The position numbers and the translations under genes are program-made. Below the pieces are notes generated by a model, which searched no databases, was not told where the DNA came from, and saw only the letters and a list, made by a program, of their open reading frames with translations. From a bacterium (GTDB lineage: Bacteria; Bacillota_I; Bacilli_A; RF39; UBA660), in the NCBI GenBank assembly GCA_029007115.1, contig JAQXHG010000015.1:1-53175 (forward strand): DNA of 53,175 bases, written 5' to 3'. How positions within the stretch are numbered: the first letter of the stretch is position 1; the number at the start of each line of letters is the position of its first letter. Shown here piece by piece: positions 2,158 through 48,308 of this stretch.

Positions 2158-4014
2158 ATGATTAGTTCTGTATTTATAGGCTCAGGATTTGCAATATGTG
2201 GACTTGTGATGATGCTTTTAATATTAATAATATTTTTAAATAAAAATAAAAAATGGGATATGAAGTCTACTATATTCTTTATTACTGCTATTGTAACAAT
2301 TATCGTACTAAGTTTAGAAATAATAATCTCATATACCATTATTAATAGAGACATTTATCCTACTTTAAATAACATTTTATGTAGATTTTATATGTTTTTT
2401 AATATATTATGGTTCTTTTTAGCCACTGGATATGTAATTAGTGTATTTGTCAAATTTGATAAAAATAAAAAAGAAATATATTTCTCAATAATATATGGAG
2501 TTATATCAATATTATGTTCTGTATTATTTGCTGTTTTATATAATTTGAGTTTTGATGTGTATATAGAAGGTGAGCCCTGTTTTATTGATGGTTCTTATTA
2601 TATTATTATGAAAGTAATTAGTATCCTTTCAAGTTCAACTCATGTATTAATAATGACTTTAAATCGCAAAAAAGTAAAAAATTTAAAAATGGCTTCAATA
2701 TTCTTTTTAGCATTTGCGTTTTTAGTGGCTAATGTAATTTTATATTTAATAGGTAAGGATTTAAATATATTAAGTATAACATTAGCTTTAACAATAACAA
2801 TTTTATTCTTAACAATTGAAAATCAAGATATAAAATTATTAGATGAATATGAGAATATGAGAAAAGAAAGTATTAAATCTAGTGAAGCAAAATCGGATTT
2901 TTTAGTTAATATGTCACATGAAATTAGAACACCTCTAACGACAATATTAGGTTTTAGTCAAACATTATTATACAATGATAATTTAACTGAAGAAATGCTT
3001 AAAAAGGATTTAATTAGTATTAAGAAAGCAAATAATAGTTTAACTAGTTTAATAAATAGTTTATCTGATATATCTAGTCTTGAGAATAATAAGGTTGTAT
3101 TAAGTGAAAGTGATTACAGTTTAGAAAACTTAATATTTGAAATATATAGTTATATACCACCAAAAATTAACAAAGAGAATCTAATGTTTAATATTAAGGT
3201 TAATCCTGATATTCCCAAAAAATACTATGGCGATGCAGCAAAATTATTTAAAGCTATCTCATATATAATACAAAATGCAATAGAACATACAAATTATGGA
3301 GAAGTAACTTTAACAGTTGATGCACATAAAAAAGAACATGCTAATTATGAATTAGAGTTTATAGTATCAAATACCGGTCATGCAATGAAAGAAGATGAAT
3401 TTAATTTAAATTTGGATGACTACATTGAACTAAGTGATAAAGCAAATAATGCTAGTTTGGGATTAATAATAGCAAAAAGATTGATAATGCTATGTAATGG
3501 CACAATAGAGTTTATTAATAGACCTGGAGAAGGAACTAAATATATAATTAAAGTAAATCAAAAAAATTATACTGAAGATGAAAAAATTGGTAATATCTTT
3601 GCTAATCATACACATACTAATTTCACATCTAATTTTATAAATTGTAAAGATAAAAGGGTTCTTATAGTTGATGATAAGGTTAGTAATTTAAGTGTTATGA
3701 CTGAATACTTAGAAAACTATAAATTTACTATTGTTACTGCTAAGAATGGAAAAGATGCAATTGCTGCTATACAAAGGGAAAGATTTGATATAGTATTTCT
3801 AGATTATTTAATGCCAGATATGAGTGGTGTTGATGTGATAAAAACATTAAAGTCATTATTACAGGTTTTACCGGTAATGGTATTAGTAGTAAATAATTCA
3901 GAAAGTTCAGATTTTGATAAGTTCATACAAGAGGGATTTAATGATTGTATCACTAAACCAATTATATTTAAGAACTTAAATAAATTAATAAATAAATACT
4001 TTAAAGAAGAATAG
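2158..4014 (+). CDS. Seven-helix hybrid histidine kinase, phosphoacceptor half (degenerate ATP site)
   Basis: This 618-aa membrane sensor has about seven hydrophobic helices in residues 4-222, a HisKA segment (MSHEIRTPL, His254), a HATPase region (about 355-468) and a C-terminal receiver (about 499-616). The H-box is intact. The ATP site is not: the G1 motif that normally reads DxGxG is NTGHA (Asn405), no F-box is visible, and the G2 motif GxGLGL is NASLGL. Loss of the G1 Asp, which contacts adenine, usually abolishes ATP binding. The receiver keeps the acidic pair D505/D506, phospho-site D549 and Lys600, but the switch Thr is Val577. The gene ends 15 bases before its partner, which has the opposite defect, so I infer that it is phosphorylated in trans. 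It is most similar to the kinase at 44553-46436. Confidence 0.9.
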   Translation: MISSVFIGSGFAICGLVMMLLILIIFLNKNKKWDMKSTIFFITAIVTIIVLSLEIIISYTIINRDIYPTLNNILCRFYMFFNILWFFLATGYVISVFVKFDKNKKEIYFSIIYGVISILCSVLFAVLYNLSFDVYIEGEPCFIDGSYYIIMKVISILSSSTHVLIMTLNRKKVKNLKMASIFFLAFAFLVANVILYLIGKDLNILSITLALTITILFLTIENQDIKLLDEYENMRKESIKSSEAKSDFLVNMSHEIRTPLTTILGFSQTLLYNDNLTEEMLKKDLISIKKANNSLTSLINSLSDISSLENNKVVLSESDYSLENLIFEIYSYIPPKINKENLMFNIKVNPDIPKKYYGDAAKLFKAISYIIQNAIEHTNYGEVTLTVDAHKKEHANYELEFIVSNTGHAMKEDEFNLNLDDYIELSDKANNASLGLIIAKRLIMLCNGTIEFINRPGEGTKYIIKVNQKNYTEDEKIGNIFANHTHTNFTSNFINCKDKRVLIVDDKVSNLSVMTEYLENYKFTIVTAKNGKDAIAAIQRERFDIVFLDYLMPDMSGVDVIKTLKSLLQVLPVMVLVVNNSESSDFDKFIQEGFNDCITKPIIFKNLNKLINKYFKEE

Positions 4015-4029
4015 AAGGGAGTAAGTATT

Positions 4030-5880
4030 ATGCTATATGGATTATTATTAGCAATAGGTAGTTTAATATATTTAATAATATTAATGATTATTTATTATAA
4101 TAAGAAATACTTTGATATTGTTCAAGGAAGAATATATAGGTATATGTTATTTCTTAATATAGTATTTATAGTATTTCAAATAATAGCAGTATTGGTAATT
4201 TATTTTTCTCTTTCAGATGTAATTATATACTTAACTTGGAGAATATCGTGGTCAGCTTGTATTGGTTGGTATGGATTCTTTTATTTCTATTTTGTTGCAT
4301 TTACCAATAACGATAATTCGAATTCATTTATATCTTTTTTGAAAAAAAGAAAGTTTTGTATGGGAATGGCAATATTTATTTGTATTGCGATTGTTGTTTA
4401 TTTTATATTTTTACCATATGAGACTCAAACTGTTAGTAATATGACATATTTACCGGGAAAAACAGCATATATTGTATTTGTTTTCTGTGTTTTTCTAGAT
4501 ATATTGGTTATAATAAACTTAATTAAAAATATTAAAAATCTATCTAAACAAGACACAACAGTAATTTTTGCATCATTATTAGCTACAATTATATTGATGT
4601 CATTTCAAGTTAAATATCAGTTAATAACTTTTATACCTTTGGGCTTTGCAGTTGAAATGTATTTATTATATTTTACAACTGAAAATCCAGATTTATTATT
4701 ACTTAAAAAGACTAAAGAAGTAAGTGATGAATTAGAAAAATCAAATAAAATAAAATTAGATTTTTTATCAAATGTTTCATATGAAATTAAAAATCCAATG
4801 GATTCAATATCAAGTTTAACAGATACATTAATTAATACACCTTTTAATGTTGATTCTACTAAGAATTATTTGAAACAAATATGTAACTCTGGATCTGATC
4901 TATTAGATATCACGAATAATATATTAGATTTATCTACAATTGAGACAGGTACCAATTTGGTAAAAAATAAAAATTATAATCCTAGTGAAATGATATCAAG
5001 ACTAGTAGATATAATAAAAAATAAGTTAGGCTATAGTAAGATACACTTTAATGTAAGTGTTGATACTAATTTACCAACTATTGTAAATGGAGATGAATCA
5101 AAAGTATATCAATGTGTATTAAATATATTAACAAATGCAGTTAAGTATACTGAAATAGGTAAGATTACTTTTACAGTTACATCTAAAAGAGAAGGTAATA
5201 ATGTTAGAATATTGTTTAAAGTAATGGATACTGGAATAGGTATTAAGGAAGAAGATCATAAGTATTTGTTTGAAAAATTTTCAAGATTAGATGATGCGGT
5301 TATAAAGGAAATAGAGGGTAGTGGTCTAGGCCTTACAATAGCTAAAAAATACTTAGATTTAATGGGTGGAAAAATATGGTTTGAAAGTCAGCATTTAGCA
5401 GGAAGTACATTTTTTATTGAAATAGTTCAAACGATAGTAGATCCTACACCTATTAGAAATATTGCATTTAATACAGAAAAAATAAATTATTCTGAAGGAT
5501 ATGATTGTTCAAATTGTAAACTTTTAGTTGTAGATGACGATGAATTAAATGTTAAGGTTCTAAGTAGAATGCTTGAAAGATATAAATTAAAATTTGATTA
5601 TGTTGAAGATGGAGATAAATGCATCACTAAGATAAAATCAGATGAAAAGTATGATTTAATATTTATGGATGATAATTTACCAAACATTACTGGGACAGAA
5701 ACAATGAAGTTATTAAAAGATTTAGCAGGTAATGAACTGCCACCAGTGATTATATTAACAGCAAATGCGATACTTGGAATGAAAGAGAAATATTTATCTG
5801 AAGGATTTAGCGATTATTTATCAAAACCTATTGATATACAAGAATTAGATAAAATAATTAATAAATATTTAAAGAAGTAA
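4030..5880 (+). CDS. Seven-helix hybrid histidine kinase, catalytic half (phospho-His replaced by Tyr)
   Basis: This 616-aa protein has the same layout as its upstream neighbour: about seven membrane helices (2-216), a dimerisation/H-box segment, HATPase and receiver. The ATP site is textbook: N-box Asn369, G1 DTGIG at 400-404, F-box LFEKFSR, G2 GSGLG at 430-434. The H-box reads SYEIKNP, with Tyr251 (codon TAT) at the position of the phospho-accepting His (CAT), a single-base change. The receiver is complete, with D502/D503, D547, T577 and K599. It therefore cannot autophosphorylate conventionally, yet should bind ATP. It probably provides catalysis for the intact His of the upstream partner. 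The start has a GGGAG ribosome binding site, and the two genes form one operon. Confidence 0.9.
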   Translation: MLYGLLLAIGSLIYLIILMIIYYNKKYFDIVQGRIYRYMLFLNIVFIVFQIIAVLVIYFSLSDVIIYLTWRISWSACIGWYGFFYFYFVAFTNNDNSNSFISFLKKRKFCMGMAIFICIAIVVYFIFLPYETQTVSNMTYLPGKTAYIVFVFCVFLDILVIINLIKNIKNLSKQDTTVIFASLLATIILMSFQVKYQLITFIPLGFAVEMYLLYFTTENPDLLLLKKTKEVSDELEKSNKIKLDFLSNVSYEIKNPMDSISSLTDTLINTPFNVDSTKNYLKQICNSGSDLLDITNNILDLSTIETGTNLVKNKNYNPSEMISRLVDIIKNKLGYSKIHFNVSVDTNLPTIVNGDESKVYQCVLNILTNAVKYTEIGKITFTVTSKREGNNVRILFKVMDTGIGIKEEDHKYLFEKFSRLDDAVIKEIEGSGLGLTIAKKYLDLMGGKIWFESQHLAGSTFFIEIVQTIVDPTPIRNIAFNTEKINYSEGYDCSNCKLLVVDDDELNVKVLSRMLERYKLKFDYVEDGDKCITKIKSDEKYDLIFMDDNLPNITGTETMKLLKDLAGNELPPVIILTANAILGMKEKYLSEGFSDYLSKPIDIQELDKIINKYLKK

Positions 5881-44552: not shown

Positions 44553-46436
44553 GTGACTAGTACATATTTTAATAGTATAAGTTTAAGTAATGTAGCATTA
44601 ATATTTCTTGGAATAATAATGATTATATATATAAGAAAAATAAAATTTACAACTATTTCTAATAAAATATATTTTATGTCAATGATAGTATTATTAATAA
44701 CTTGTTTACTAGAATTGTTTTATCCATATACAATGATGATAAGAGAAGAAATTCCATTATTAAATGAAATTGTATGTAAAACATATGTAGGATTTGTATT
44801 ATTGTGGTTACTTCTATTTTTAATTTATACTTGCTTTTTAGTTTTTAGTAGTCGTGGAATATATAATGAAAAAGGAAAGATTAAAACATCTTTTAAAATG
44901 TTTATTATAATAATGATTATTGCTGATGTTTTAGGCGTCATATTTACAGATATTGAGTATTTAGGTGGATATGCTGGTATGCCATTTGTGGTAGGTGGTT
45001 CTTTAATCTATATAATTTATTTAATTAGTGTAATTGGATGCTTTGCTATTATTGTGCTTATTGGTATGAATAAAAATCATATTAAAAATGTATATTTAAC
45101 TCCATTATTACTAATGCTTAGTACATACATAATTGCTATATTATTACAATTATTTTTTAATTATGAAATAAATATTATATCTTTTTTTAGTACCTTGATT
45201 TTAGTTGTATTTTACTTTACCATTGAAAGTCAAGATTTTAAGTTATTAGATGAATATAAGCAATCTAAAAAAGAAGCGGAAGAAGCCAATAATGCTAAAA
45301 ATGCTTTTTTAGCTAATATGTCACACGAAATTAGGACACCTATGAATATAGTAATTGGTTTTTCTCAAGCATTACTTGATGAAAATAATTTAACAAAAGA
45401 AATGGTCTTAAGAGATATGAAAAATATAACGGATGCAAATATATTACTTAAGAGTTTAATTGATAATATATTAGATATTTCAAAAATTGAAAATAAAGAA
45501 TTTAAATTAGAAGAAAATGAATACTTACTTGAGAACATAATATTCGAAATAAATAGTTTAATTCCCTCTAGAATTGTAAATGATGAACTTAAATTTACAA
45601 TTGAAATTAACGAAAATATTCCTAAAAAATATTATGGAGATGCTTATAAACTATATAAAGTAATCACATATATTTTATTAAATGCTATATCTAATACTAC
45701 TTATGGAGAAGTTAAATTAAATATTGATGGTAAGAGAGTAGATGAAAACAACTTTGATTTTGAATTTATAATTTCTAATACTGGACACTTAATGACTAAA
45801 GATAATTTTGAAAAAGATTTTGAAGATTTTGTTAGTATTCAAAGTGACAAAAATAATTTAGATAATAATAGATTGGGGTTAATAATAGCAAAAGAATTAA
45901 CAAAAATTATAAGTGGTAATATTGAATTTATTAATGAAAAAGGTAAAGGAACTAGATATTTTATTAGACTTAGACAAAGAATCTTAGATAATAAAAATAT
46001 AGGAAATATATTTGAAAACTCTTCGCATGGAATAGCAACAACTAGAAGTATTTTAAATTTGGAAGGAAAAACGGCTTTAGTAGTCGATGATGGGCAAGTA
46101 AATTTAGATATGTCTAGAAGGAGTCTTGAACAATATAATTTAAACATTATTACAGTTAAAAGTGGAAAAGAGTGTGTTGAGGTTGTTCAAAACATGAAAA
46201 TAGATATAATTTTTTTAGATCACTACATGCCTGATATGGATGGAATTGCAACTATTAAAGCGCTACATGCAATTGGATGTGAATTGCCACCAATCGTTGC
46301 ACTTACCGCGAATAATTATGATGCACTAAAAAGTAATTATATAGCGCAAGGATTTGATGAATATTTACAAAAACCTATAGTATTTAAAGAAATGAATAGG
46401 GTAATGAAAAAATATTTCGGAGAAGAAGACTTATAG
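44553..46436 (+). CDS. Seven-helix hybrid histidine kinase, phosphoacceptor half (second pair)
   Basis: This 627-aa paralogue of the kinase at 2158-4014 has about seven membrane helices (10-224), a shared juxtamembrane [13 protein letters not shown] motif, H-box MSHEIRTPM with His258, HATPase and receiver. As in that paralogue, the ATP site is degraded: the G1 motif is NTGHL (Asn409 for Asp), no F-box is seen, and G2 is NNRLGL. The receiver is complete here (D512/D513, D556, T585, K607). GTG is the start, with GGGAG upstream. The gene is followed after 12 bases by a partner with the opposite defect. Confidence 0.9.
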
Positions 46437-46448
46437 GAGGAATTAATT

Positions 46449-48308
46449 ATGGAATTTGGAATAGTACCTATAATTGCAAGTTTAGCATTTTTAATAGTAT
46501 TAATCTTAGTATATAATTCTAAAAAACAGATTAATGATATTACAAATAAAATTTTTAAATTATACATTTATATAAGTCTTACTTTTTGCATAACTGAATT
46601 ATTATTTGTATTTACAGTAACTTATGTTGATATAAGTATAATATCTAAGATAATTTGGAAAATACATTGGGTATTTGGCTGCTCTTATTGGGGATTATTG
46701 TTTTTATATTTAGTTATAATAATTAAAAATATAGAAGTAAATTCTTTTAAAGAAGTATTTAATTATGATAAAGTTTTGAAAATTATTTTAATTATATTTA
46801 TGGTCGTACCATTTATTACTTTAATTGTTCCTGCTGATAGTGTTGATATAATGCTTGAGAATAAAGAATTAATGTTTAGCAATAAAAAACTCGATATATT
46901 TATTGTAATTTATTGTTCAATTATTTTAATATCAATATATTCATACTATTTAGCTAATAGAAAAAAAGTGTCAAAAACATGTCGATTTAGTGTATATATA
47001 ACTATAATAAATTCAATAAGTTTTATAATTTTTCAAATATTGTTGCCTAATATATCACTTTATTTTGAACTTAGTGTGGTTATGGCTTATATATTATATT
47101 TTAATTTTGCAAATCCAGATATAGGTTTAATGAAAGAAATTAACTTAGTTCAAAAAGATATAGAAAAAATTAATAAAACTAAAACTGATTTTTTATCAAA
47201 TATGAGTTATGAAATAAAGATACCAATAGATTTGATAACTAATCTATGTAATGATATATCAACAATTAATGTATTTGATCAAGAAATGGTAAAAAAAGAT
47301 TTAAAGCAAATAATAATATCTGGTAATAACTTATTAGAAATAGTAAATAATGTACTTGATATTTCTAAAATAGAAAGTGGAAGAAATATACTGATTGAAA
47401 AAGAGTATAATTTAAAAGAAATGATAGATGATATTAGTAGTAATGCAATATCAAGAATTGGTGCTAAAAAGGTAGAGTTTAAATTAGAACTAGATGAAAA
47501 TATTTCATCTATATTAATAGGTGATTATTCTAAACTTTATAGAGCTATTTTAAATATAGTTAATAATGCAGCGAAATTTACTGAAGTTGGAAAAGTAGTA
47601 TTTTCAGTCACAAGTAATAAAAATGGAAATTATGAAAAATTATTATTTAAGGTTAGTGATACTGGTAATGGAATTAAGGAAGAGGATAAAAATTCATTAT
47701 TTTCAAAAGGCGTTAAATTAAAAAATAATGTAGGTGGAGAAACAGAAGGTAGTGGACTTGGACTATCAATATCTAAAGATTATATTGATGCTTTAGGTGG
47801 TAAAATATGGTTTGAAAGTGAATATAGAGTAGGATCAACATTCTATATTGAGGTATCACAAAAAATTAAAGATTCAACACCAATAGGGCAAATAAAGAGT
47901 GATGTTAAAGATGATAATAAAAGAATTGATTGTACAGGTAAAACCGTATTAATAGTTGATGATAATAAGCCTAATATTAAAGTTGTGAAGAGACTTTTAG
48001 AAAAGTACAATTTCAAAGTAGATAGTGTATTAAATGGACAAGATTGTATATATAAAATAAAAAGTGAAATACATTATGATTTAATATTTATGGATCATGT
48101 AATGGAAGGAATGGATGGTATCGAGACATTACATGTACTTAAAAGTTTAAAAGAATATAATTTGCCTCCAGTAATTGTATTAACAGCAAATGCAATGAGT
48201 GATACTAGAGACCTATATATTAAAGAAGGTTTTGATGGATATTTATCAAAACCAGTAACACTTAAAGATTTAGATAAAGTAGTTAATAAGTATTTTAATA
48301 ATAAATAA
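46449..48308 (+). CDS. Seven-helix hybrid histidine kinase, catalytic half (second pair, Tyr for His)
   Basis: This 619-aa paralogue of the kinase at 4030-5880 has about seven membrane helices in 5-220, an H-box reading SYEIKIP (Tyr254, codon TAT, in place of His), then an intact ATP site with N-box Asn373, G1 DTGNG at 404-408 and G2 GSGLG at 434-438. The receiver is complete (D504/D505, D549, T579, K601). An AGGAGGAA site precedes the ATG. It shares the short linker motif (STPIGQI, compare TPIRNI) with its paralogue. It is probably the ATP-using partner of the upstream gene product. A terminator follows. Confidence 0.9.
   Translation: MEFGIVPIIASLAFLIVLILVYNSKKQINDITNKIFKLYIYISLTFCITELLFVFTVTYVDISIISKIIWKIHWVFGCSYWGLLFLYLVIIIKNIEVNSFKEVFNYDKVLKIILIIFMVVPFITLIVPADSVDIMLENKELMFSNKKLDIFIVIYCSIILISIYSYYLANRKKVSKTCRFSVYITIINSISFIIFQILLPNISLYFELSVVMAYILYFNFANPDIGLMKEINLVQKDIEKINKTKTDFLSNMSYEIKIPIDLITNLCNDISTINVFDQEMVKKDLKQIIISGNNLLEIVNNVLDISKIESGRNILIEKEYNLKEMIDDISSNAISRIGAKKVEFKLELDENISSILIGDYSKLYRAILNIVNNAAKFTEVGKVVFSVTSNKNGNYEKLLFKVSDTGNGIKEEDKNSLFSKGVKLKNNVGGETEGSGLGLSISKDYIDALGGKIWFESEYRVGSTFYIEVSQKIKDSTPIGQIKSDVKDDNKRIDCTGKTVLIVDDNKPNIKVVKRLLEKYNFKVDSVLNGQDCIYKIKSEIHYDLIFMDHVMEGMDGIETLHVLKSLKEYNLPPVIVLTANAMSDTRDLYIKEGFDGYLSKPVTLKDLDKVVNKYFNNK

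Follow-up and report, generated by a model that had tools for sequence, protein, structure and literature searches.

Tandem seven-helix hybrid histidine kinases with reciprocal loss of the acceptor histidine and the ATP site

The tandem kinase genes and their motifs

The window, a stretch of 53,175 nucleotides analyzed at its full length, carries two adjacent genes on its forward strand whose products share one architecture, a seven-helix (7TM) region followed by HisKA, HATPase_c and receiver (REC) domains. The upstream protein, U, has 618 aa (2158..4014) and the downstream protein, D, has 616 aa (4030..5880); the open reading frames bear out the 15-base gap between the genes that a sequence-only reading of the locus had reported. 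Pfam HisKA, HATPase_c and Response_reg all score above gathering within the single chain of U and likewise within that of D, and AlphaFold models of U and D as separate chains predict about seven helices N-terminal to each kinase core, in keeping with the earlier description of paired seven-helix hybrid kinases. Directly upstream of these genes (pair A) lies a 477-aa open reading frame (610-2043) with no Pfam match.

The key residues of both proteins had been described exactly. U retains the phospho-acceptor, His254 of MSHEIRTP (2917..2919), and the Thr at position +4 completes an HExxT phosphatase motif. Its G1 box reads NTGHA (3370..3384), in the context SNTGHAM where DTGxGI is expected, with Asn in place of Asp and His in place of the second Gly; its G2 box reads NASLGL (3448..3465) where GxGLGL is expected, without the first two glycines. 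These boxes had been taken to mean that the ATP motifs of U are ruined, which holds for the boxes themselves but goes too far for the site as a whole: U still has the Asn of the N box and the first G1 glycine, so that the site is crippled rather than erased. D carries VSYEIKNP, with Tyr251 (codon TAT, 4780..4782) at the phospho-His position, together with an intact G1 box, DTGIG (5227..5241), and an intact G2 box, GSGLG (5317..5331) within GSGLGL. A Pfam comparison of the kind proposed in that reading places the weaker score exactly in the degenerate domain of each protein: HATPase_c scores 45.8 bits in U, far below the 90.5 bits in D, and HisKA scores 44.2 bits in D versus 52.7 in U. The receiver of U (3658..3990) keeps the phospho-Asp, and VVNN replaces LTAN (3880-3910) with loss of the switch Thr, a residue kept in the U of all other pairs; the receiver of D (5524..5859) has its catalytic residues. 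Judged by these motifs, U appears to be an ATP-dead acceptor half and D an ATP half without acceptor His, the two functions being placed on separate proteins that are encoded together.

Reciprocal and half-degenerate pairs among relatives

The genome that contains the window encodes four tandem kinase pairs (A to D) and one single kinase. Pairs A, B and C are all reciprocal, with Tyr, Tyr and Ser, respectively, at the His position of D. The window also contains pair B, on the same strand, its U at 44553..46436 and its D, with MSYEIKIP, DTGNG and GSGLG, at 46449..48308; pair C is on another contig (C49). Seven further reciprocal pairs, in which D has Tyr or Val, come from six more species of this genus (G121, G127, G129, G131 and G132 with one each, G125 with two), bringing these type I pairs to 10 from 7 species. 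The two G125 pairs lie back to back (L072:1836-8547, G125:C8), and the contig ends inside the second D, leaving its Tyr readable but not its ATP site, for which reason counts for D are given out of nine. The sequence-only reading had allowed that relatives might show random rather than reciprocal loss; the loss is ordered, and the reciprocal pattern holds in 10/10 type I pairs. No chain of either kind has the full set of a HisKA-type hybrid kinase: the acceptor His is present in U (10/10) and absent from D (0/9), whereas the Asp of G1 and the glycines of G2 are present in D (9/9) and absent from U (0/10). Both boxes are intact in all nine D proteins, and in U the degenerate G1 box retains NTGH (10/10), while each of the first two glycines of G2 is found in none of the ten. 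NTGH is also kept in the sister genus and is gone from the U of the type II pairs described below (3370-3384 and orthologous positions); the conserved residues may have a role in folding, at an interface or in binding a ligand.

Type II pairs, in which the ATP domain of U is ruined and D is complete, are found in G121, G122, G125 and G127 and in the genome under study, where pair D (contig C8) combines a complete D with a U that has Arg for His and no intact ATP domain. An ATP-dead U occurs in 30 pairs; every readable ATP site of D among these is intact, and in none of the pairs is the His missing from both members; the sole U without His, that with Arg in pair D, adjoins a complete D. A separate tandem pair in G122 (L102:2447-5720, G122:C3), in which both members lack the His and most ATP-site motifs and one lacks the receiver, is probably dead or purely structural. 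The genes of a pair are always adjacent, spaced by about −11 to +18 bases, and no orphan U or D was seen in the genus or the sister genus except at contig ends. Chance degeneration common to this type of kinase is ruled out by the background, since His, G1 and G2 are all intact in 125/126 related kinases from loci outside the genus, a figure that is unbiased for the ATP site and biased for the His, because most of these loci were picked by a His-containing motif. A wide contig scan matched mainly the generic NMSHEIRT and returned background kinases, with no new pairs; a strict SNTGHAM DNA pattern misses variants such as LNTGHAM, and the distribution given here therefore comes from profile searches.

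Relatives outside the genus preserve what look like older stages. In the sister genus, profile searches found one pair per genome in 14/18 species, in two of which the genes for U and D are each at the end of a separate contig; U is ATP-dead, with DSxxLGL-like boxes, and D is complete, as also in G396 of a third genus. The U of G143 has intact G1 and G2 boxes and an altered F box, both members are complete in G020 and G176, and G342 and G208 have one complete kinase, which is single. Elsewhere in the family, other seven-helix proteins that share this architecture (L193, L195, L198, L199, L210 and L225-L227) have Gln or another residue at the His position and eroded ATP and receiver sites. Those at L193 and L195 flank AMP-dependent ligases, with two copies per locus whose C-terminal parts are nearly identical, as in gene conversion.

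A tree of the cytoplasmic part, from which the columns of the His box, G1, F and G2 had been removed and the divergent pair D left out, groups all U proteins together (SH-aLRT 91) and all D proteins in a second clade (98); the nearest outside sequences are single kinases from Hpt/REC-HD operons, and the main clades agree with an earlier bootstrapped tree. Parsimony on this tree requires one tandem duplication and two state changes in all, the loss of the ATP site in U (a clade of 29 rows, support 99) and the loss of the His in D (9 rows, support 98). Since the sister genus has an ATP-dead U yet a complete D, the loss in U preceded that in D. With only two independent losses, reciprocity does not amount to many replicate events; it was then retained through divergence to about 40 percent identity. 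U and D distances correlate with r = 0.97 across nine type I pairs, a value owed in part to species descent. For the paralogous pairs A, B and C, the U/D distances match one by one (1.23/1.18, 1.07/1.13 and 0.93/0.91), which indicates that the pairs were duplicated as units. A complete kinase would thus have been duplicated in tandem, after which U would have lost its ATP site and D, later, its His.

Division of labor within the pairs

Both degenerate domains are under constraint. The dead ATP domain of U has a dN/dS of 0.01-0.16 among the closest type I pairs, and the HisKA domain of D, without its His, one of 0.03-0.13; purifying selection acts on every domain of U and D. What is conserved differs between the partners: type I U keeps the His, the HExxT motif (+4 being T, N or S) and the N-box Asn, each in 10/10, and type I D retains the Asp of G1 and the glycines of both boxes in 9/9 but the +4 residue of HExxT in only 1/9 (lost in 8/9). 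Of 12 positions on the helix face that follows the His, the receiver docking site in known kinases, 9.0 in U and 3.7 in D agree with an ancestral-like consensus. This split in motifs and helix face suggests that accepting phosphate, dephosphorylation and receiver docking fall to U and catalysis to D.

We posit that U and D are probably one kinase in two polypeptides, in which D phosphorylates His254 of U inside a heteromeric membrane complex that feeds a phosphorelay. We infer complex formation, trans-phosphorylation and phosphate flow from the pattern of conservation; transfer in trans is argued for because otherwise the ATP site of D and the His of U would be useless, yet both are conserved. 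In the complex, most simply a heterodimer formed through the DHp helix bundle, D would bind ATP and its catalytic domain would phosphorylate His254; D, having no His, could not phosphorylate itself, and U would lack productive ATP binding. The DHp of U would also provide the phosphatase motif and the receiver-docking face. Phosphate would pass from His254 to a receiver of the pair (that of D and, in most pairs, that of U as well) and on to an Hpt protein, either a stand-alone Hpt or an Hpt-REC protein encoded elsewhere in the genome or, in relatives, an adjacent Hpt and a REC-HD regulator. With a seven-helix sensor in each subunit, signaling would need both proteins and could integrate two inputs.

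Geometry is the point on which this mechanism is most exposed. HK853 is a cis kinase, and the DHp H-to-D distance of 50 here appears nearer to that of HK853 (51) than to that of EnvZ (43). A strictly cis kinase could not be complemented by pairing. The mode differs among kinases, EnvZ and BarA acting in trans and ArcB and EvgS in cis (PMC4734776); if the ancestor acted in cis, either the geometry would have changed or a larger assembly would be involved.

Other readings of the same pattern have to be weighed. The best placed of them, which we regard as unlikely, takes U as a RetS-like partner that acts on D as a phosphatase, phosphate sink or inhibitor and not as an acceptor. RetS, whose degenerate ATP domain is devoid of G boxes, associates with its partner, which it dephosphorylates or drains (PMC5992135), U keeps the HExxT motif, and the reading suits the sister genus, where D is complete; in type I pairs, however, D has no His from which phosphate could be drained or whose phosphorylation could be inhibited, yet its ATP site is kept in 9/9 and the His of U in 10/10. 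It is more doubtful still that U is phosphorylated by another complete kinase (such as the single one on C48 or the complete D in pair D), or by an Hpt protein in reverse, with D as a regulatory pseudokinase. Besides two Hpt proteins, the genome does encode two complete hybrid kinases of this family, but such cross-phosphorylation gives no reason for an intact ATP site in D or for the constant adjacency of U and D, without orphans in the genus and sister genus except at contig ends.

Very improbable, in our view, is a DivL-like pseudokinase D whose Tyr has a role of its own, in phospho-specific receiver sensing or as an acceptor, independent of the His of U. In DivL, a sensor of DivK~P, Tyr occupies this position too (PMC4211667), and the AlphaFold model of U also matches the DivL structure; DivL, however, binds ATP weakly, whereas D keeps its ATP-site residues, and it is the docking face that has drifted in D. 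Ser or Val at this position in other pairs rules out Tyr as the acceptor. That U and D are decaying, functionless duplicates would fit the lack of an essential residue in each and the fully broken pair in G122, but is scarcely credible given purifying selection on each domain and opposite halves conserved across species; low dN/dS and this conservation rule out pseudogene decay.

Known systems and downstream partners

Histidine kinases are textbook homodimers, and heteromers are known mainly from regulatory cross-talk. On balance, we favor the view that pair A represents a natural obligate heterodimeric membrane histidine kinase that arose by duplication and complementary degeneration, with the single gene, the intact pair, the half-degenerate pair and the reciprocal pair still living in relatives and three copies of the reciprocal pair in this genome. 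No published natural reciprocal kinase pair was found in searches of open-access papers. One parallel comes from the laboratory: an EnvZ G2-box mutant and the H243A mutant, combined in a mixed dimer, are the standard test for trans-complementation (PMC4734776) and divide the residues identically, as engineered mutants rather than as a natural fixed state. Evolution appears to have fixed this complementation, with the His supplied by one partner and the ATP site by the other.

Among natural systems, the CheA3/CheA4 pair of Rhodobacter sphaeroides, invoked in the sequence-only reading, is an apt precedent for the mechanism, and RetS/GacS and DivL, absent from that reading, are further ones. One CheA provides the His and phosphatase activity and the other binds ATP, with autophosphorylation only when the two are mixed (PMC3591291). 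Acceptor and ATP functions are likewise divided between two proteins, but in a cytoplasmic chemotaxis CheA that has lost whole domains (P1 versus P3/P4), whereas here full-length seven-helix hybrids have lost single motifs; Pfam finds only HisKA, HATPase_c and Response_reg in U and D and nothing of the CheA architecture (Hpt-like P1, P3 and CheW-like P5). RetS and GacS of Pseudomonas aeruginosa are membrane-bound hybrid kinases that associate and share these core domains, one of them with a degenerate ATP domain (PMC5992135; PDB 7n0e), but GacS is complete and is inhibited by RetS, whereas the partner here lacks the His, which makes the loss reciprocal. An ATP-dead protein beside a complete kinase is found in the sister genus, whose pairs are nearer to RetS/GacS, and not in type I pairs, pair A included. 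DivL of Caulobacter is a HisKA kinase with Tyr where the phospho-His would be (PMC4211667), and it senses DivK~P and binds ATP weakly; D has an ATP site that looks complete, and Tyr is not conserved, the residue being Tyr, Ser or Val among orthologs and paralogs. CheA3/CheA4 thus works alike with unrelated domains, and RetS/GacS and DivL each match one half only. The pairs suggest a natural design for two-input sensors, and with intermediates still alive the emergence of an obligate complex can be tested directly, including whether a change from cis to trans was necessary.

A His-Asp-His-Asp relay from the pairs into an Hpt hub would be the natural reading of the genomic surroundings. In those sister-genus and older-stage loci that extend far enough, an Hpt gene and a REC-HD_5 gene adjoin the kinase genes; the HD motif of the G379 REC-HD protein seems by eye to be YYDIG, and this protein may therefore be degenerate. 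Two proteins of the genome under study are Hpt candidates: one of 119 aa on C45, which scores under the Pfam cut-off, and an Hpt-REC protein of 390 aa on C34 (L243:3308-4480, G000:C34), whose linker consists of repeated VAPAGQPVAPQAP-like units.
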